NCBI RefSeq assembly: GCF_013340845.1
Contig: NZ_AP020335.1
Location: 1,364,001-1,428,000 of the forward strand
Origin: Hydrogenovibrio marinus
GTDB lineage: Bacteria > Pseudomonadota > Gammaproteobacteria > Thiomicrospirales > Thiomicrospiraceae
DNA: 64,000 bases
Direction: 5' to 3'
The position numbers were made by a program, and so were the translations under genes. The notes under the pieces were generated by a model. The model did no database searches and was not told where the DNA came from. It was given only the letters and a program-made list of their open reading frames with translations. Numbering within the stretch: position 1 is the stretch's first letter; every line of letters starts with the position of its first letter. Below, in pieces: positions 26,994-35,568 of the stretch.

Positions 26994-28043
26994 TTACCCT
27001 AACAATGCCTGTTGATTGGATTCGTTAACAAAATGGTTGACTGCATAAGACTTTGATTGCCATGTTGGGTCTTTATGCAACTGTACATAGCTTAAGTGTG
27101 GCTTGCCATGTAGGCGGATCAGTCTTGCATGAGACAAAGCATCTCCTTCCCAGTGCACATTTGCCAATACATCATCAGCCGCCATAGAATCATTGCAAAC
27201 CAAAACCAAATCACAGCCTGCTTCCAACGCCATTGTCACACGCTTAGCCGGCGTGCCGAAAACCTCAGCGGCTTTCATTGACAAGTCATCACTGATAATC
27301 GCCCCTTCAAAATGACATTGCTTGCGCAGTACATCTTGCAACCAATGCTTGGAGAAGCCCGCAGGTAACGCGTCCACTTTCGGGTAAATAACATGTGCCG
27401 GCATCACCGCTTCCACTTGATTTTCAATCAAGCGTAAAAACGGCTGTAAATCGTGTTGAGCGATTTCATTGAAACCTCTCTCATCCACTGCAATTTCATA
27501 GTGGGTGTCAGCTTCAATATAACCGTGCCCAGGAAAATGCTTTGCGACTGATGCCATTCCTGCTTTATGCATACCATTCATCAAATGCCAAGTTAAGTCA
27601 GCAACCACTTGAGGATTAGAGTGAAATGCACGATCGCCGATTACTCGACTACCACCAAAATCCAAATCGACTACTGGCGCAAAGCTGAAGTCTACCCCTA
27701 CCGCCAAAAGCTCCGTTGCCATCAGCCAACCAACATTTGATGCCACTTCTTTTGCCTTTTCGGGCGACGTATCATAGAGGTGCCCAATCAAACGCATGGC
27801 TGGCAAGCGGCTAAATCCTTCTTTAAACCTTTGTACCCGCCCACCTTCATGGTCAACGGCTATCAACAACCTAGGGTGACGCAAGCTATGGATTTCTTGT
27901 GTTAGCTTCTGTAACTGCTCAACTGATTCAAAGTGACGAGAAAATAAAATCACGCCCGCAACCAAAGGGGTCATCAATCGTTCACGGTCGACCTCCGTCA
28001 GACGTGTACCTTCAATATCAATCATGACACTACCAAGTGACAT
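26994..28043 (-). CDS. nagZ: Beta-N-acetylhexosaminidase NagZ
   Basis: Cytoplasmic GH3 enzyme that removes GlcNAc from GlcNAc-1,6-anhydroMurNAc peptides in peptidoglycan recycling. Seen: VDHEGGRVQRF, AKHFPGHGYIEADTHYE (catalytic His/Asp loop) and AIISDDLSMKAA (Asp nucleophile). The frame opens at 28070, but AAGGA lies just before the ATG at 28043, and MSLGSVMIDIEG aligns with E. coli MGPVMLDVEG, so that start is chosen (349 residues). It lies downstream of the peptide permease genes and a YkuD gene, which supports a recycling cluster. Confidence 0.95.
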   Translation of the reverse strand: MSLGSVMIDIEGTRLTEVDRERLMTPLVAGVILFSRHFESVEQLQKLTQEIHSLRHPRLLIAVDHEGGRVQRFKEGFSRLPAMRLIGHLYDTSPEKAKEVASNVGWLMATELLAVGVDFSFAPVVDLDFGGSRVIGDRAFHSNPQVVADLTWHLMNGMHKAGMASVAKHFPGHGYIEADTHYEIAVDERGFNEIAQHDLQPFLRLIENQVEAVMPAHVIYPKVDALPAGFSKHWLQDVLRKQCHFEGAIISDDLSMKAAEVFGTPAKRVTMALEAGCDLVLVCNDSMAADDVLANVHWEGDALSHARLIRLHGKPHLSYVQLHKDPTWQSKSYAVNHFVNESNQQALLG

Positions 28044-28126
28044 GGCTTTTCCTTGGACGGTTTTTTCCATAAATTTATCGTACTTTCTCGCGTTACTTTT
28101 TAAACATTATAAATAGCTTTCGGGTA

Positions 28127-28144
28127 AAAACCGAAATCGGTTTT
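28127..28144 (-). terminator. Terminator between permease genes and nagZ
   Basis: On the minus strand AAAACCG, loop ATTT, CGGTTTTT. Short but with a T-run; it lies about 20 bases after the permease stop. Confidence 0.6.
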
Positions 28145-28162
28145 AGGAAATCTGTTGGGTAA

Positions 28163-29020
28163 TCATTCTCTGCGGGACTTTGCCTTCACATCCAAGTGAT
28201 CTCGCCACTGATCTCCCAGCAAATTAACAGCTAAGACCACCATCATCAACGCTAGACCTGGGGCCAGCACCAAATGTGGCGCAACCAGAAGGTAACGAGT
28301 TCCTTCTCTAATCATGCTTCCCCAAGACGCATCTGGAGCTTGTACCCCCAACCCAAGGAAAGAAAGCCCCGCCTCTGAAATCACCGCACCGGCAATACCA
28401 AAAGTGGCTTCAACCCCTAAAGGCGCCAATATTAATGGCAACAAGTGGCGCCATAAAATCAAATAAGTCGGTACTCCAAAAGCCTTAGCTGCTTGAATAT
28501 GCTCGCGGTTACGTAAACTTAGCGTCTGTGCCCGTGCCAATCTCGCGTAACTTACCCAACCTACCGTCACCAAAGCAAAGACAACATTTTCAATTCCTGG
28601 CCCTAAAATAGCCGCCAAAGCAATTGCCAGCAACAAACCTGGAAAGGCCAAAAAGACATCTATTATCTTCAGGATAACCTTATCCGTCCAACCGCCAACA
28701 TAAGCACTATAAACACCAATAGTTGTGCCGATGATTGAAGAGAAGACCACAACACCCAGCGCCACCAAAAAAGAGGTTTGTGCGCCCATAAGCAGTCTAT
28801 CCCACACAGGACGCCCTAATTCGTCATACCCCAACCAGCTTTGATCAACACCAAAAGCGAGTAGTTTCTTCAAATCAATTTGCGTTGCTTCATCGCCGAC
28901 AAACGCACCCGATACGGCCATCATTAGCCATATAAGCACCACCAACAATGGCAGCACCTTAAAGCTAACCAGGTAATTTCGTAAATCGCGAATAGATTGA
29001 AACTGCATTGACTTCATCAT
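28163..29020 (-). CDS. Peptide/nickel-type ABC transporter permease (DppC/OppC family)
   Basis: Inner-membrane permease with about six hydrophobic helices in 285 residues. The N-terminal OppC region is followed by the ABC coupling motif (EHIQAAKAFGVPTYLILWRHLLPL: EAA loop) and SEAGLSFLGLGVQAPDASWGSMI, typical of DppC/OppC. Its start overlaps the end of the DppB-like gene by four bases (ATGA). No ATP-binding subunit is in the window, so the transporter must use ATPases encoded elsewhere. Context with nagZ and a YkuD gene suggests murein peptides as cargo (inference). Confidence 0.9.
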   Translation of the reverse strand: MMKSMQFQSIRDLRNYLVSFKVLPLLVVLIWLMMAVSGAFVGDEATQIDLKKLLAFGVDQSWLGYDELGRPVWDRLLMGAQTSFLVALGVVVFSSIIGTTIGVYSAYVGGWTDKVILKIIDVFLAFPGLLLAIALAAILGPGIENVVFALVTVGWVSYARLARAQTLSLRNREHIQAAKAFGVPTYLILWRHLLPLILAPLGVEATFGIAGAVISEAGLSFLGLGVQAPDASWGSMIREGTRYLLVAPHLVLAPGLALMMVVLAVNLLGDQWRDHLDVKAKSRRE

Positions 29021-29940
29021 TTTGCTAAACGTATCCTAGGGTCTAACCAAGCATAAACCACTTCCGTCAAACCATTCACCAAAATATAAGCCACACTGAT
29101 AATCAAAATACAGGCTTGGACAACAGGATAGTCGCGACGCTGTATCGACTCCACCAAGAGTTGTCCCAGTCCTGGCCAATCAAACACCACTTCCGTAATA
29201 ACCGCTCCACCAAGCAACGTTCCAAGTTGCAAACCCAACACAGTGATAACAGGCAACATGGCATTCATCAATGCATGCTTGCCGTAAACCGCAGCGCCAG
29301 ACAGACCTTTTGCTCTTGCCGTTCTTATAAAATCTTCATGGTAGATTTCCAATAACGACGCACGCAGCATTCTCGCCAATATCGCAGCCAACGCCGTTCC
29401 CAAGGTTATGGCAGGCAATACCCATGAAAAAGGTTGCTCGGCACCACTCACTGGTAGCAATGACAAACCAATGGAAAACGCCAGAATCAGCATTGGTCCC
29501 AACCAAAAGTTAGGCACAGAAACCCCGATCAAAGAAACCGACATTGCCAGATGGTCGGGCCATTTTCCCGCACGGATAGATGCCCAAATACCTAATGGAA
29601 AGGCAATCAATACCGCTATCAGTAAAGACAGTAATGCCAACTGCAAAGTGTATGGAAAACGATTGGTGATCAACTCGGATACCGGTTGTTGATAAAACAA
29701 TGACTGGCCAAAATCACCCTGGACGATACCCGTCAGATAATGAATATATTGCTGAAATAGCGGCAAGTCCAAGCCCAATTGATGGCGCAGTGCGTCAGCA
29801 TCAGCCGGACTTGCCCAATCACCCAGCATGACCTCAACAGGATCGCCCGGTACAAGATGAATCAAGAAGAAAACCATCGAACCGACGACCCAGGAAATGA
29901 AGATAAGTGAACCTACCAAACGAACGAGGTACTGGAGCAT
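29017..29940 (-). CDS. Peptide/nickel-type ABC transporter permease (DppB/OppB family)
   Basis: Partner permease of the DppC-like protein. Residues ~10-60 hold TM1 and the family segment LVPGDPVEVMLGDWASPADADALRHQLGLD. The coupling loop is EDFIRTARAKGLSGAAVYGKHALMNAMLPV, and the C-terminus has GAVITEVVFDWPGLGQLLVESI. 307 residues. It follows the YkuD gene by 18 bases on the same strand. Confidence 0.9.
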   Translation of the reverse strand: MLQYLVRLVGSLIFISWVVGSMVFFLIHLVPGDPVEVMLGDWASPADADALRHQLGLDLPLFQQYIHYLTGIVQGDFGQSLFYQQPVSELITNRFPYTLQLALLSLLIAVLIAFPLGIWASIRAGKWPDHLAMSVSLIGVSVPNFWLGPMLILAFSIGLSLLPVSGAEQPFSWVLPAITLGTALAAILARMLRASLLEIYHEDFIRTARAKGLSGAAVYGKHALMNAMLPVITVLGLQLGTLLGGAVITEVVFDWPGLGQLLVESIQRRDYPVVQACILIISVAYILVNGLTEVVYAWLDPRIRLAK

Positions 29941-29958
29941 TAAACAGTCACCCCATTC

Positions 29959-30438
29959 TTAACCATTAACAATCTCCACTTCACTGCCAACAGGCACTCT
30001 ATCAAATAAATCCATCACATCTTCATTGCGCATACGAATACAGCCGTGCGACAACGCAACGCCCATTGGTTCGGTATCTGGTGTGCCATGAATGTAAATA
30101 TAACGTTGCATCGTATCTTGATTACCTAAACGATTCGTCCCTTTTTCCAGACCGGACAACCATAATATACGGGTCAATATCCAGTCTCTATCCGGGAACT
30201 CTTGTCTCAAAGCATCGTTATAGATTTCTCCCGTTGGACGGCGCCCTATAAGAACACTATTCTTTTGTAATCCGTCACCAATCTTCGCACGAATCTTGTG
30301 TTTACCCAAAGGCGTTTGCCCTGAGTTTTTTTCATTGCCAATCCCTGCCAAAGCAGTACTCACAGAATAACGCTTAACTTCTTTTTCGCCGTCAAGTAAC
30401 GTTAACGTCTGTTGTGGAATAGAAATGAGAATCTTCAA
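29959..30438 (-). CDS. YkuD-family L,D-transpeptidase/carboxypeptidase without signal peptide (ElsL-like)
   Basis: A bare YkuD catalytic domain of 159 residues. The catalytic motif is complete: HG (His117) and SHGCIRM with Cys133 as nucleophile. It has no signal peptide, transmembrane segment or LysM domain, so it should stay in the cytoplasm, unlike cross-linking periplasmic Ldt enzymes. Acinetobacter baumannii ElsL is a small cytoplasmic YkuD protein shown to be an L,D-carboxypeptidase in peptidoglycan recycling, doing the LdcA job. The neighbours here (peptide permeases, binding protein, nagZ) support the same role. The enzyme assignment is inference; the domain is clear. Confidence 0.8.
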   Translation of the reverse strand: MKILISIPQQTLTLLDGEKEVKRYSVSTALAGIGNEKNSGQTPLGKHKIRAKIGDGLQKNSVLIGRRPTGEIYNDALRQEFPDRDWILTRILWLSGLEKGTNRLGNQDTMQRYIYIHGTPDTEPMGVALSHGCIRMRNEDVMDLFDRVPVGSEVEIVNG

Positions 30439-30469
30439 AATAAATTATCCGGATGCACTAAATTCGCTA

Positions 30470-30496
30470 AAAATCTACCAGGTTGGGTTAAAACCC
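30470..30496 (+). repeat. Copy 2 of the AAAATCTGCCAGGTTGGGG repeat (variant single arm)
   Basis: AAAATCTACCAGGTTGGG at 30470-30487, one base different from the core over 18 positions, followed by TTAAAACCC, so that GGGTT-AA-AACCC can pair. It lies in the 70-base gap between yjdF and the YkuD gene. On the minus strand it ends in a T-run and may act as a weak terminator or attenuator. Confidence 0.75.
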
Positions 30497-30513
30497 TTTC
30501 TTTAAAGTTTATA

Positions 30514-31149
30514 CTAACGGTTTGAAAAATAAAGCAATTGCTTGTCATGCAGCTTAGACAGCGTGACCAACGCGGCAATACCACCTATCAATGCAAATAA
30601 CATATCTGTTTGCGTGTCCCATTCATCGCCCTGCGTTCCGAGAAAAGCTTCGGCACCCGTTTCCGAAATCATGGCCGCGCTCCATTCTACCAACTCGTAA
30701 AATGCGCTGAAAGCCAGTACAAAGCAGACAATAAAAAAATTCATCCATGCCTTCGATGAAAGTACTTTTTGCCTTAAAAGCAGCTCTCTAGCAATCATTA
30801 CGGGGACAAATCCTTGCAGAAAGTGCCCTACCTTATCGTAATTGTTTCGGCTTTGTTGCAGCCAATGTTCCAAATCTGAAAACAACGGAACTTCTGCATA
30901 GGTGTAATGGGCACCGACCATCAAGACAATGCAATGCAATAAAATCAGCCAATATACCAATGGCGTGATACCGACAGTCACTCTATATCGCAACACCAGC
31001 AAAAAGCCAATCAATGCAGGCAGTGCTTCCATCCACCATGTGAGCCAGTCTTTAGGTTGATAGGTTGACCACAATAAGACCGCAATGAATATTCCAGCCC
31101 ATAAACCAACTGCGCCATAATAATGTTCTTTACGAATCGCAGCCGGCAT
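30514..31149 (-). CDS. YjdF-like DUF2238 inner-membrane protein
   Basis: Integral membrane protein with about six hydrophobic segments in 211 residues. Features typical of the DUF2238/YjdF family: NNYDKVGHFLQGFVPVMIARELLLR, FSAFYELVEW and GTQGDEWDTQTDMLFALIGG, with conserved acidic and His residues that could bind a metal or lipid head group. Function of the family is unknown. The frame can begin at TTG (31155); the ATG at 31149 starts two bases after the binding-protein stop, so translation is coupled to it. Confidence 0.8.
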   Translation of the reverse strand: MPAAIRKEHYYGAVGLWAGIFIAVLLWSTYQPKDWLTWWMEALPALIGFLLVLRYRVTVGITPLVYWLILLHCIVLMVGAHYTYAEVPLFSDLEHWLQQSRNNYDKVGHFLQGFVPVMIARELLLRQKVLSSKAWMNFFIVCFVLAFSAFYELVEWSAAMISETGAEAFLGTQGDEWDTQTDMLFALIGGIAALVTLSKLHDKQLLYFSNR

Positions 31150-31151
31150 AT

Positions 31152-32687
31152 TCAAACCATTTTTTTGACTTTAAGCAGCCCGTCGAAACGGCCGTCGGAA
31201 TATAGCTGATAGCCTTCTACGCCCTTTCTCATTACAGCATACTGGTTTTCATACCATAAGGGCATTGCCGCCAGTGTATCTTGTAAATGACGTTGTAGCT
31301 GTCGATAGAGTTTAGCTTCTTCCGCTAAGGATTGTGCCTCTCCTGCTTCACGAATCAAGGTGTCCGCTTCCGCATCACGATAACGCCCTCGGTTCGCGCC
31401 TCTGGGCGGAATGGCATCTGAGTCAAACACGTACTGAAAAATGTCCGGGCTCTTAATCCCCACCCACGCAAGGCTATACAACTGGAAACGCCCTTTTTTG
31501 ATGTCGCTGTAAAAGGTTCCCCAGTCATAACTTTGAATATCGAGCGCGATACCGATTTTCTTCAACTCAGCTTGATAGATGGTCGCCAGCCGAATTCGCG
31601 TCGGATCCGATGAAGTTTTATAGCTCAGCTGGATTTCTCCAGCTTCGTTTAGATAAGGTTTGATTAAATCGGTTTGTTTCCTTAGCTCCGACAACAAAGC
31701 TCGTGCCTTATCAGGATCATAATCAAACCCTTTTAAATCAGGCACACCACACCAATGCTCCGGCACCAATAACCCGCCAGCCAAGCGCGCTTCGCCAGCG
31801 AACAGCGTATCAATTATCAATGGTCGATTAATACCGTGCGCCAGCGCCTGCCGCATCTCAAGTTTGGATAACAAAGGGTCTTCAAAATTAAAGCCAATAT
31901 AGGCAAAGCTGGTACCGAAATGAGACGATACGACCAAATCATCGCGGTGATGGCAGTAATTCAACAATTCAGGCGACAAATCGTTTTGTATGAGATCCAG
32001 TTCTCCCTTACGGAGTTTCAACACTCTGACAGTCGCATCCTTAACCGGGATGAACTCTAGCGTTGTTTTATCCGGCCTTTGTAATACAAGCCTTTGTTCG
32101 TCCATAGAGAGAAAACGACAGGCACCGCAGCCAATTGGTGACGACAAAAACGAATGGTCTTGCTCAATCAGATCTTTCGGCAAAATACCAATCACCAAAC
32201 GACCAACAAATAACGTATCAGGATGTGCCAAATGAAAATCAAACTGGGTGTCGTTAAGCGCCACGGCTGAAGTGATGTGCTTCAACGATCCTCTAAGAGG
32301 AGAACCTTGCTTGGGATCCAGAATCGAATCAAATGTCGCCACCACATCTTCAGAAGACAACTGCTTACCATGGTGAAACCTTGGACGCACTTTGAGTGTA
32401 AAACGATATTGCGTGGGTGAAACCATTTCCCAAGTCGCTAAATCTGGAATCGGCTCAAAAGACTCGTTGAAATCGATTAGTTGACGGTAAATCAGACGAT
32501 TAAGTCGGCTCGACAAAGCATCTGTCGCTTGCCTCGGATCCAGCACACGTGTTCTTGAGGTAACACCAACCAGAATTTGACTCGCACTAGAGTGAGTTTC
32601 ACAACCCGCCAATAGCGATATGGACGGCCAAACGGCTAAGCCAGCCAGTCCACTAGACGTTCGTTTAAAAAAAGTTCGCCTATCCAT
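31152..32687 (-). CDS. Peptide-type ABC transporter substrate-binding lipoprotein (family 5)
   Basis: Periplasmic solute-binding protein of the DppA/OppA/MppA class. The N-terminus MDRRTFFKR has twin arginines of a Tat signal, and SLLAGC ends in a lipobox (Cys29), so it is probably a Tat-exported lipoprotein. Family 5 segments include PIPDLATWEMVSPTQYRFTLK, GKQLSSEDVVATF and EMRQALAHGINR. 511 residues. It starts a run with yjdF, the YkuD gene and the two permease genes, and probably feeds those permeases. Substrate unknown; murein tripeptide or tetrapeptide is a reasonable guess. Confidence 0.88.
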   Translation of the reverse strand: MDRRTFFKRTSSGLAGLAVWPSISLLAGCETHSSASQILVGVTSRTRVLDPRQATDALSSRLNRLIYRQLIDFNESFEPIPDLATWEMVSPTQYRFTLKVRPRFHHGKQLSSEDVVATFDSILDPKQGSPLRGSLKHITSAVALNDTQFDFHLAHPDTLFVGRLVIGILPKDLIEQDHSFLSSPIGCGACRFLSMDEQRLVLQRPDKTTLEFIPVKDATVRVLKLRKGELDLIQNDLSPELLNYCHHRDDLVVSSHFGTSFAYIGFNFEDPLLSKLEMRQALAHGINRPLIIDTLFAGEARLAGGLLVPEHWCGVPDLKGFDYDPDKARALLSELRKQTDLIKPYLNEAGEIQLSYKTSSDPTRIRLATIYQAELKKIGIALDIQSYDWGTFYSDIKKGRFQLYSLAWVGIKSPDIFQYVFDSDAIPPRGANRGRYRDAEADTLIREAGEAQSLAEEAKLYRQLQRHLQDTLAAMPLWYENQYAVMRKGVEGYQLYSDGRFDGLLKVKKMV

Positions 32688-32761: not shown

Positions 32762-34168
32762 CTAGGAACTGCTACCCGAATCCACGGGTGGATTTGCATC
32801 GTCAACCGGATCAGACAAAATACTGTCATATCTTTGTAGCTTATCGGCATCTAGTGTTCCCACTGCCGCCTCTAATTTCAAGCGGCTCAATACAACATTT
32901 TGTAACGACTGTGCCAAGTTACGTCTTGCCTGGAACTTATTGGTACGCGCAGTCAGGACTTCCAACAAGTCTTTCAAACCGACTTTGTATCCTTCTTCGG
33001 CAGCTTCAAGGAAGGCATCATTCGACTTCACCGCAGCACGGTTGGCAGCGACCAATTCAACCCCTCTTTCAACATTACGCACTTGAACACGTGCATTCAA
33101 CTTGGCGTTTTCTCTTGCATCTCGCACCCCGATTTCTGCAGCTTGATAGTTTGAACGGGCTTGAGAGACCAATGCTGACGTTCCACCACCTGAATACAGT
33201 GGCAACGAAGCGACAATACTGGCACTTGCATTATTAGGATACTTTGCACTGAACGAATAACTCGGGATAGCCGACCCTTCGGTATGTTCATATTGTGCTT
33301 GTAAGCTTAGATTAAACCAATGCCCTGACTTCTGAACTTCAACTTCTTCACTAGCGACCTTAGCTTGTTCTTCTGCTTGTAGAACAGTCAAGTTGCTATC
33401 TAGCGCTTGTTGTTCATAGGTATTGATATTCAATTGTGGTTGAGGCAACTTCACGCTTAAAGCGATGACTTTTAAGTCTTTTACTGGCTTGCCTGTCAAC
33501 TTGGTCAACTCTTCGTAAGCCACATCCAAGTTGTTCTCAGCAGAGATGCGGTCGGATTTTGACAAGTCATAACTCGACTTGGCTTGCAACACATCTGTTC
33601 TACTCGCCAGACCAACCTGAGCGGAAGCTTTAGCGCGATCCCACTGAGTTTCATCAGCCTTCTCTTTCGCCTTGGCTAGTTTGACATCTTCTTGCGCCAA
33701 CAACACTTTGAAGTAAGCATCCGCCACACGGACAATAATGTCTTGCTCCGCGCTCTTAATCGTGTATTCAGCCTTCTTCAAACTGTATTTTGCTTGAGAG
33801 TATTTTGCCCAGGAATCATGCTGGTAAAGAGACTGCTTCAAAGTGATATCAGCGGTTTTGGTATCCACCGATTTTTCATTCAGGTAGCTGTCAGTATAGG
33901 CTGCATTGGCACTGACTTGAGGTAATAACGACGCACGTGCGATTTTGACCAGTTGTTGATTAGCCTGATACGTCGCTTGTGCTTGCGCCAACGTCGCATC
34001 ATGGGCGACAGCCATCTGATAAACATCAAATAGGCTATAAGCTGCTTGCGACTGAAACGAAGTCATCGCTAAACCCGCAGCCATCATGCTGGAGACCACT
34101 AATGTGACGGCTTTCTTTTTAAATGGATTCGCTGGTCTAACTGAATTATTCAAAGCTGTTTTTTTCAT
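32762..34168 (-). CDS. tolC: TolC-family outer membrane channel
   Basis: Trimeric outer-membrane exit duct for efflux pumps and type I secretion. Signal peptide ends SFQSQA; mature protein starts AYSLFDVYQMAVAHD, the TolC family start. Two outer-membrane-efflux repeats with long coiled helices (~60-230, ~260-440) follow. 469 residues. The frame opens at GTG 34174, but GGAG lies five bases before the ATG at 34168. It overlaps the CYTH gene end by 23 bases. No inner-membrane partner is adjacent, so it is probably the general TolC of the cell, distinct from the metal-pump channel at 50.4 kb. Confidence 0.9.
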   Translation of the reverse strand: MKKTALNNSVRPANPFKKKAVTLVVSSMMAAGLAMTSFQSQAAYSLFDVYQMAVAHDATLAQAQATYQANQQLVKIARASLLPQVSANAAYTDSYLNEKSVDTKTADITLKQSLYQHDSWAKYSQAKYSLKKAEYTIKSAEQDIIVRVADAYFKVLLAQEDVKLAKAKEKADETQWDRAKASAQVGLASRTDVLQAKSSYDLSKSDRISAENNLDVAYEELTKLTGKPVKDLKVIALSVKLPQPQLNINTYEQQALDSNLTVLQAEEQAKVASEEVEVQKSGHWFNLSLQAQYEHTEGSAIPSYSFSAKYPNNASASIVASLPLYSGGGTSALVSQARSNYQAAEIGVRDARENAKLNARVQVRNVERGVELVAANRAAVKSNDAFLEAAEEGYKVGLKDLLEVLTARTNKFQARRNLAQSLQNVVLSRLKLEAAVGTLDADKLQRYDSILSDPVDDANPPVDSGSSS

Positions 34169-34652
34169 CTTCACTCCAGGTGGTGTAGGGCTTCTGGGTC
34201 AGACTGATATTGTAATAACGAACGATATTCGTCACTTCGCGCCCAATCCATTCAGGTAGTTCCAGCGCTTCATCTTCGCTGTCCAGTTCCACTTCCGCGA
34301 CAATCAATCCGTCATTATCCCCTAAAAATTCGTCGATTTCCCAGGTATGTTCTTCAATGTCTACTAAATAACGCACCTTCTCGATTACAGGGCCAACAGC
34401 AAGTGTTTTAAGCATTTTCTCTGCATCTGAGACATCAACCGGATATTCATATTCATCCCGACTGAGACCAATTTCCAAACTCTTGATGTTGATAGTCGCT
34501 TCATCTCCCTCCAAACGGATACGAATGGAACTTTTACTACCAGGCTGCTGAATATCATTCAAATAGCCTTGTGCCATGTGCGTTTTCTTTTTCGCAAGCT
34601 GTTTCCAGTCAAGGTTTGCAACCAGAAACTTTCTTTCAATCTCTCTTGCCAT
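34146..34652 (-). CDS. CYTH-domain protein (inorganic triphosphatase-like)
   Basis: Single CYTH tunnel-fold domain of 168 residues, starting MAREIERKFLV with the ExExK signature of triphosphate-binding enzymes. The alternating charged strands (SIRIRLEGDEATINIK, WEIDEFLGDNDGLIVAEVELDSEDE) complete the tunnel. Small bacterial members hydrolyse tripolyphosphate or, rarely, thiamine triphosphate. The upstream frame to 34733 runs into cysM and lacks family similarity, so the internal ATG is used. Lies 22 bases after cysM. Confidence 0.88.
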   Translation of the reverse strand: MAREIERKFLVANLDWKQLAKKKTHMAQGYLNDIQQPGSKSSIRIRLEGDEATINIKSLEIGLSRDEYEYPVDVSDAEKMLKTLAVGPVIEKVRYLVDIEEHTWEIDEFLGDNDGLIVAEVELDSEDEALELPEWIGREVTNIVRYYNISLTQKPYTTWSEDEKNSFE

Positions 34653-34674
34653 ATTTTTATATTTTCTTCTGTGT

Positions 34675-35568
34675 TTAGTTTTTTGGGTTAAAAACACCCG
34701 TTGAAAGGTAACGATCTCCTCTATCGCAAACAATTGTCACGATCAGCGCATTTTCCGTTTCATTGGCAATTTGCAAAGCCGCAGCCATCGCTCCACCCGA
34801 AGAGACACCAGCGAAAATACCCTCTTCTTTCGCCATGCGTTTCATGGTGTCTTCAGCAAGAGCTTGAGACATATCAATGGTGCGGTCTACGCGAGAGTCA
34901 TCATAGATACTGGGTAAATATTCTTTCGGCCAGCGGCGAATGCCGGGAATGGAAGAGCCCTCGGTTGGCTGTACGCCAACCACCTGAATATCTGGATTTT
35001 GTTCTTTAAGGTACATGGAGGTTCCCATAATGGTTCCCGTCGTTCCCATTGCACTGACAAAATGCGTGATATTGCCTTCGGTTTCATCCCAAATTTCTGG
35101 ACCGGTGGTGAAATAGTGCGCCAATGGATTATCTGGATTGGCAAATTGATCGAGAACGGTTCCTTGTCCTTCTGACTGCATTTTCTGTGCTAGGTCTCGA
35201 GCACCTTCCATGCCCTCTTCTTTTGACACCAAAATCAATTCAGCGCCATAGGCCGCCATAGATGCCTTACGCTCCATAGACATATTGTCCGGCATAATCA
35301 ATTTCATCTTATAACCCAACATCGCGGCAACCATCGCCAAAGCAATCCCTGTGTTGCCACTTGTCGCTTCAATCAGCGTATCGCCCGGCTTGATTTCTCC
35401 GCGTAGCTCGGCCTGCTTGATCATGTTTAGAGCGGGTCGATCTTTCACCGAACCGGCCGGGTTATTTCCTTCAAGCTTTGCCAGAATCACACTATTGGTA
35501 TTCGCATTCACCAAACGTTGGATTTTAATCAAGGGGGTGTTTCCAACGACATCCATTAAAGTTTTCAT
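34675..35568 (-). CDS. cysM: Cysteine synthase B
   Basis: PLP enzyme forming cysteine from O-acetylserine and sulfide or thiosulfate. PLP-binding Lys42 in NNPAGSVKDRPA, the substrate loop EATSGNTG, and the phosphate loop SAMGTTGTIMG. The C-terminal IVCDRGDRYLSTGVF is typical of CysM. 297 residues, close to E. coli CysM (303). The CysM form accepts thiosulfate in some bacteria, which would suit a sulfur oxidiser, but that is inference. Confidence 0.93.
   Translation of the reverse strand: MKTLMDVVGNTPLIKIQRLVNANTNSVILAKLEGNNPAGSVKDRPALNMIKQAELRGEIKPGDTLIEATSGNTGIALAMVAAMLGYKMKLIMPDNMSMERKASMAAYGAELILVSKEEGMEGARDLAQKMQSEGQGTVLDQFANPDNPLAHYFTTGPEIWDETEGNITHFVSAMGTTGTIMGTSMYLKEQNPDIQVVGVQPTEGSSIPGIRRWPKEYLPSIYDDSRVDRTIDMSQALAEDTMKRMAKEEGIFAGVSSGGAMAAALQIANETENALIVTIVCDRGDRYLSTGVFNPKN

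Follow-up and report, generated by a model that had tools for sequence, protein, structure and literature searches.

How does a bacterium with no recognisable AmpG bring its cell-wall fragments back into the cytoplasm? AmpG is the usual entry point both for cell-wall recycling in Gram-negative bacteria and for AmpC-type resistance signalling. The question is raised by a six-gene locus of Hydrogenovibrio marinus, at positions 26,994-32,687 of a 64,000-nucleotide stretch of its genome, called here the window (contig NZ_AP020335.1, 1,364,001-1,428,000; the genome is one contig of 2.49 Mb). The first-pass annotation placed there, in order on the minus strand, genes for a peptide-binding lipoprotein, YjdF, a YkuD protein, DppB/DppC permeases and NagZ. 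All six open reading frames (ORFs) and their families were confirmed at these positions. We consider that the cluster probably encodes an AmpG-independent route of muropeptide recycling. Its ATP-binding cassette (ABC) module, a substrate-binding protein (SBP) with the DppB and DppC permeases (DppBC), looks like a stand-in for AmpG. The features of the locus are the following.

31152..32687, minus strand: SBP lipoprotein of family 5, proposed to bind muropeptides (SBP_bac_5, 187.6 bits)
31455..31457, minus strand: codon of SBP residue Ile411, aligned with DppA Asp436 and MppA Asp439
30514..31155, minus strand: YjdF/DUF2238 membrane protein, accessory (PF09997, 179.7 bits)
29959..30438, minus strand: ElsL-type leaderless YkuD protein, proposed cytoplasmic L,D-carboxypeptidase (YkuD, 86.9 bits, cut-off 23.4)
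30040..30042, minus strand: codon of YkuD residue Cys133 (SHGC-R motif), predicted to be catalytic from an alignment of 19 sequences
29017..29940, minus strand: DppB-type permease (BPD_transp_1, 136.5 bits; Opp2B, 358.8 bits, cut-off 350)
28163..29020, minus strand: DppC-type permease (BPD_transp_1, 107.7 bits)
26994..28070, minus strand: NagZ beta-N-acetylglucosaminidase (equivalog NF003740, 469.7 bits, cut-off 207; Glyco_hydro_3)

The reading frames of the SBP and YjdF overlap, 18 bases separate the end of elsL from dppB, and dppB and dppC share 4 bases.

The recycling genes of the host genome and of its order, Thiomicrospirales, frame the question. The first-pass annotation had supposed a pathway working without LdcA, and had held a genome with normal AmpG and LdcA to be incompatible with it. 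LdcA (PF17676) has no match in the host genome or in any of the order's 50 high-quality genomes; among all 62 order genomes a single match appears, in G041, whose listed contamination is 8%. For AmpG (TIGR00901), there is no match in the host genome and none of the 62 reaches the cut-off, a level exceeded by the E. coli and Caulobacter controls. Weaker matches occur in three (G050, 143 bits; G026, 140 bits; G009, 24 bits). AnmK is present in 60/62 order genomes (49/50 of high quality); 61/62 (50/50) have a protein of Amidase_2, a Pfam family that does not by itself separate AmpD from AmiD. NagZ, AnmK and an AmpD-type amidase are all retained in the host genome. The anhydro-sugars on which AnmK and NagZ act enter the cytoplasm by import. 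With both enzymes kept and no AmpG match, some importer that is not a recognisable AmpG is to be expected. The idea of a recycling locus around a cytoplasmic ElsL-type YkuD is thus supported, in a genome without LdcA or AmpG match.

The evidence that carries our proposal comes from outside the order. ElsL-like proteins are matched in 288 of the 377 sampled genomes of the class Gammaproteobacteria, order members included. AmpG is matched in 303 of the 377 (271 above cut-off), leaving 74 without a match. For the comparison, AmpG status was defined by a TIGR00901 match at E<=1e-10, draft contigs were included, and six genomes with weak matches were scored as AmpG-positive. ElsL coordinates, best matches only, were listed for 144 genomes outside the order, and 100 neighbourhoods were fetched: 33 of the 34 AmpG-negative ones (G296, with its match at a contig edge, was omitted) and 67 AmpG-positive ones, hand-picked and thus non-random. 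The SBP lies near elsL in 29/33 AmpG-negative versus 19/67 AmpG-positive genomes (Fisher p 1.2e-8), and DppBC in 23/33 versus 17/67 (p 3e-5). Four control genes from the same neighbourhoods show no significant AmpG bias: NagZ (21/33 versus 48/67, p 0.49), CYTH (22/33 versus 32/67, p 0.09), CysM (14/33 versus 24/67, p 0.66) and MscS (10/33 versus 22/67, p 1).

Without the weak-AmpG genomes, the counts are 29/33 versus 17/61 for the SBP and 23/33 versus 15/(46+15) for DppBC. When only loci flanked by 7 kb on either side are counted, the SBP is found in 20/23 versus 18/60. Counting once per family and AmpG state gives 16/18 versus 13/44 for the SBP (p 4e-5) and 11/18 versus 11/44 for DppBC (p 0.01). 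A Pagel-type test of correlated evolution was then applied to a tree of five concatenated proteins with 110 tips, namely the 100 loci and 10 order loci. The likelihood-ratio statistic (4 degrees of freedom) was 34.9 for the SBP (p 5e-7) and 28.4 for DppBC (p 1e-5), p values to be taken as guides because the tree is a midpoint-rooted tree of neighbourhood genes and the sample is non-random. Under the SBP model, losses of AmpG are confined to the state with the SBP, the alternative rate being at its lower bound; the module is lost in both AmpG states and is not acquired while AmpG is there. Under the DppBC model, losses of the module are confined to the state with AmpG. The link of the ABC genes with AmpG absence survives both family collapse and the tree-based test.

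Several observations weigh against a substitution of AmpG by the module. The SBP also occurs in the 19 AmpG-positive genomes counted above, and in the DppBC model the rate of AmpG loss sits at its lower bound in both states, so that loss of AmpG where the module exists is seen in the SBP model alone. Four AmpG-negative genomes of the 33 have no SBP near elsL (G292, whose locus is on a 10.8 kb contig; G303; G217; and G301, which has DppBC), and ten have no DppBC near elsL. In seven AmpG-negative genomes the SBP is present and DppBC is not near elsL. One of them, G358, carries DppB-DppC-NagZ about 12 kb from SBP-ElsL, on the same contig and the opposite strand (identities of 61, 64 and 46%, respectively). 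DppB-DppC-NagZ was not found in the stretches fetched around G254, G108, G222 and G314, and the G103 contig bears a generic SBP-permease-ATPase set with 24-39% identity. Within the order, 7 of 40 stretches lack the SBP; of these, L053 lies near a contig end. The NCBIfam model Opp2B labels DppB a nickel permease. Finally, no ABC ATPase is encoded in the cluster, and the double ATPase YejF, discussed below, is matched (E<=1e-100) in only 6 of the 23 AmpG-negative, DppBC-positive genomes outside the order. The complete import-and-trim pathway of the first-pass annotation therefore does not hold for the cluster by itself, which lacks an ATPase.

Which ATPase could then energise DppBC? A cluster-borne one was considered and dropped, YejF-like matches in the order and class neighbourhoods being weak and belonging to other ABC genes. 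The oligo_HPY domain (PF08352) is a mark of Dpp/Opp ATPases. In the host genome it is found only inside YejF, a double ATPase of 556 residues (two matches, E 2e-5, both slightly under cut-off). YejF belongs to a complete yejABEF operon separate from the window (G000:C1:1273279-1279485, i.e. L081:5279-11485), which also encodes a YejA-like protein of 724 residues; YejF is present in 61/62 order genomes. In an alignment of 20 sequences, DppB residues D203, T207 and K211 are nearly invariant and H222 and N226 invariant. Compared by eye, their spacing is that of D235, T239, K243, H254 and N258 of E. coli DppB, which contact the ATPase DppD (PMC12136057; this and the other papers cited here are represented by excerpts). 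Because DppB keeps these contact residues and YejF is the sole fitting ATPase, YejF is the likeliest partner in trans in this genome. Outside the order, YejF was rejected as a general partner, being absent from 17 of the 23 genomes mentioned above in a search whose threshold would miss unfused DppD/DppF pairs.

YejF also figures in a different explanation, which we regard as unlikely although it is the best of those that compete with ours: YejABEF itself would import muropeptides, as YejBEF-YepA does in Agrobacterium, and the window transporter would carry other cargo, or its SBP would assist YejBEF. The complete operon and its near-universal YejF in the order speak for it, as does the replacement of AmpG in Agrobacterium by YejBEF with another SBP (PMC9790009). 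Moreover, YejF occurs in 5/7 AmpG-negative genomes having only the SBP, against the six of 23 having DppBC, and four loci (L208:438-2444, L245:387-2396, L216:11-1732 and L228:39-476) have a YejF-homologous double ATPase 7-8 kb upstream of the SBP. However, YejABEF is unlinked to elsL or nagZ in the host genome, most AmpG-negative genomes with DppBC have no YejF, and the host YejA retains the Asp at the amino-group site that the window SBP has lost. A mixed mode may also exist, in which the window SBP works with YejBEF or YejF. As a side observation on these loci, the YejF homologues of L216 and L228 are cut by the locus end, and aminotransferase and succinate-dehydrogenase-like genes lie between the YejF homologue and the SBP.

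We return to muropeptide import by SBP-DppBC and to its likely ligand. The N-terminus of the SBP (MDRRTFFKR...LLAGC) appears, from its sequence motifs, to combine a lipobox with a twin-arginine look. In our alignment the SBP forms a subfamily of its own. In a muropeptide, L-Ala has no free amino end, being joined to the lactyl group of N-acetylmuramic acid (MurNAc). DppA Asp436 and MppA Asp439 bind the free amino group of the peptide (PMC12136057, PMC6022919). At this alignment site, Asp is present in DppA, MppA and the host YejA, and I, V or L in 161/161 sequences of the SBP subfamily. Loss of the Asp is expected for a muropeptide-like ligand, because its N-terminus is blocked; the change fits other ligands that lack a free amino end as well, and is in this sense unspecific. 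An equivalent of DppA Arg383 was dropped, as the HMM alignment pairs it with a conserved Asp and MAFFT with another column.

The SBP alignment, used to scan GTDB contigs, gave at least 565 relatives, of which 80 were kept, some sharing contigs with the 100 class loci. The kept relatives include Thiomargarita, Parabeggiatoa, Thiotrichaceae, Chromatiaceae, Ectothiorhodospiraceae, Sedimenticola, Tenderia and many further Gammaproteobacteria. Downstream of the SBP, 42 of the 60 relatives with at least 4.2 kb of sequence have ElsL and 19 have ElsL-DppB-DppC-NagZ; 14 of the 60 have none of the four on that strand within 6.5 kb. No SBP relative was among 40 pattern matches in viral contigs. Close SBP relatives are also seen in L228, L232 and L244, labelled Halobacteria archaeon, Nitrospirota and Nitrospirales; these labels are likely explained by mis-binned metagenome contigs.

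The first-pass annotation had proposed uptake of murein peptides. The cargo is more likely a muropeptide than a free murein peptide. Import of free tri- or tetrapeptides, in the manner of MppA-OppBCDF, with ElsL trimming them in the cytoplasm and the sugars entering otherwise, seems to us quite improbable. It accounts well for a family-5 SBP with MppA among its solved relatives, for the action of ElsL on tetrapeptide stems (PMC8649774), and for an SBP linked most tightly to elsL, whose start is less than 200 bases away in 48 of the 53 loci having ElsL. It does not explain why the whole subfamily lacks the Asp that in MppA binds the free amino group of L-Ala, and, AmpG being absent too, NagZ and AnmK would receive no disaccharide. 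Furthermore, the association that we observe is with loss of AmpG, a carrier of anhydromuropeptides.

Gene order was conserved in Thiomicrospirales, as the first-pass annotation supposed. ElsL-like proteins are matched in 59/62 order genomes (49/50 of high quality), and stretches of up to 18 kb around elsL were taken from 40 of the 58 other positive genomes. ElsL-DppB-DppC is contiguous in the window's order in 40/40, NagZ is found in 39/40 (it is missing only from L049, which stops close by and where DppB is matched in two pieces) and the SBP in 33/40. A recurring ElsL-DppBC-NagZ unit is therefore borne out; YjdF, on only 5/40 loci, was rejected as a core member. CYTH (33), MurB (32), TolC (31), MscS (31) and CysM (29) are also neighbours in these 40 loci. 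Because this wider neighbourhood is syntenic too, conservation within the order is weak evidence alone, and the comparison outside it matters more. There, elsL directly precedes nagZ without ABC genes in many AmpG-positive class genomes, which refines the clustering first noted: the adjacency of elsL and nagZ is common, and does not require the transporter.

An ordinary peptide or nickel (Opp2/Nik-type) importer in a merely conserved chromosomal stretch would agree with the Opp2B score of DppB and with the synteny of CysM, CYTH, TolC, MscS and MurB across most of the order, but it is very improbable, since the SBP scores far below the NikA cut-off (103.6 versus 393 bits), the ABC genes track AmpG absence outside the order while CysM, MscS and NagZ do not, and ElsL-DppBC-NagZ stay together even in order loci where CysM, TolC or MscS was not found.

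Other features of the neighbourhood were noted. An inverted gene of about 157 codons, seen in 18 loci, lies between dppC and nagZ in many genomes of one genus, and a TetR-like regulator of about 189 residues directly precedes elsL in six genomes of the genus (L037, L038, L041, L042, L043 and L046). A CYTH-domain-like gene is located at window positions 34146-34733. Many genomes of the class have such a gene immediately before the SBP or elsL, and it is present on 54/100 loci; it may be part of an older neighbourhood.

The YkuD protein is ElsL-like, not formally ElsL: it scores 208.2 bits with the NCBIfam model NF040925, under the cut-off of 270. The 'exception' type of this model presumably marks a narrow naming rule. 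The open frame has 161 codons for an ORF of 159 residues. As just two codons precede the TTG start, no signal peptide is hidden upstream, which agrees with the absence of an export signal first noted. Cys133 and Arg135 are invariant in 19/19 aligned sequences, and the His preceding Cys133 is replaced by Arg in two. By analogy with the ElsL family, L,D-carboxypeptidase activity is predicted. A second YkuD of the genome (L082:5172 onward, G000:C1 near 539645-540052; 404-residue frame) has a hydrophobic N-terminal stretch and SKGC in place of SHGC, and resembles an exported protein.

In the route that we propose, the SBP lipoprotein would capture periplasmic muropeptides, probably N-acetylglucosamine (GlcNAc)-anhydroMurNAc-peptides, and pass them to DppB/DppC, powered by an ATPase encoded elsewhere, here most likely YejF. 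In the cytoplasm, ElsL would trim the terminal D-Ala off the tetrapeptide stem and NagZ would take off GlcNAc. An AmpD-type amidase and AnmK, encoded elsewhere, would complete recycling. More broadly, Gammaproteobacteria could hold an old second family of muropeptide importers (an Asp-less SBP with DppBC, the ATPase in trans, set between elsL and nagZ), AmpG and the module covering for each other. If so, AmpG could be lost in lineages that keep the module, Thiomicrospirales among others, and the module in lineages that keep AmpG. We see the arguments for and against this mutual cover as evenly balanced, having lowered our confidence slightly because the two tree models are mixed in direction.

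A candidate importer linked to processing enzymes offers a testable answer to recycling in class genomes without an AmpG match. It would add a second case in which AmpG is replaced, this one outside Alphaproteobacteria, and it suggests a function for the SBP subfamily, many of whose GTDB relatives are labelled as uncultured sulfur-oxidising lineages. No account of an elsL-linked ABC importer came up in searches of an open-licence PMC library, a scope without subscription papers and preprints, and the excerpts of the three papers there that treat both ElsL and NagZ do not mention their linkage.

How does this system compare with known ones? ABC uptake of murein peptides is described in E. coli and B. 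subtilis (PMC13204101, PMC10924461). E. coli DppABCDF shares with the window the permease and SBP fold families and the spacing of the DppB ATPase contacts, whereas the window cluster has no ATPases and has Ile in place of DppA Asp436. MppA-OppBCDF of E. coli likewise uses a family-5 SBP for a cell-wall fragment and a permease of the same superfamily, but MppA binds a free tripeptide and has Asp439 at the site of Ile411 in the window SBP. ElsL of Acinetobacter baumannii (PMC8649774) resembles the window YkuD in being leaderless, in its conserved catalytic Cys and in a genome without LdcA. It differs in that A. baumannii recycling goes through AmpG (PMC9239154, PMC8630537), in that the excerpts describe no linkage to an ABC importer, and in that the window YkuD falls short of the NF040925 cut-off. 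A further parallel is YejBEF-YepA of Agrobacterium tumefaciens, with an ABC importer, a family-5 SBP, no AmpG, and the recycling enzymes kept (PMC9790009). YepA is stated there to be exclusive to Alphaproteobacteria. Window DppB and DppC are 30% and 26% identical to the host YejB and YejE, respectively, and the host YejA has no match to the window SBP at E<=1 (YejE against the SBP, E 0.44, is at chance level). Muropeptide import by an ABC transporter is thus already known from YejBEF-YepA, and the system proposed here would be a variant of that kind, with a DppB/DppC pair and another SBP placed beside elsL and nagZ.

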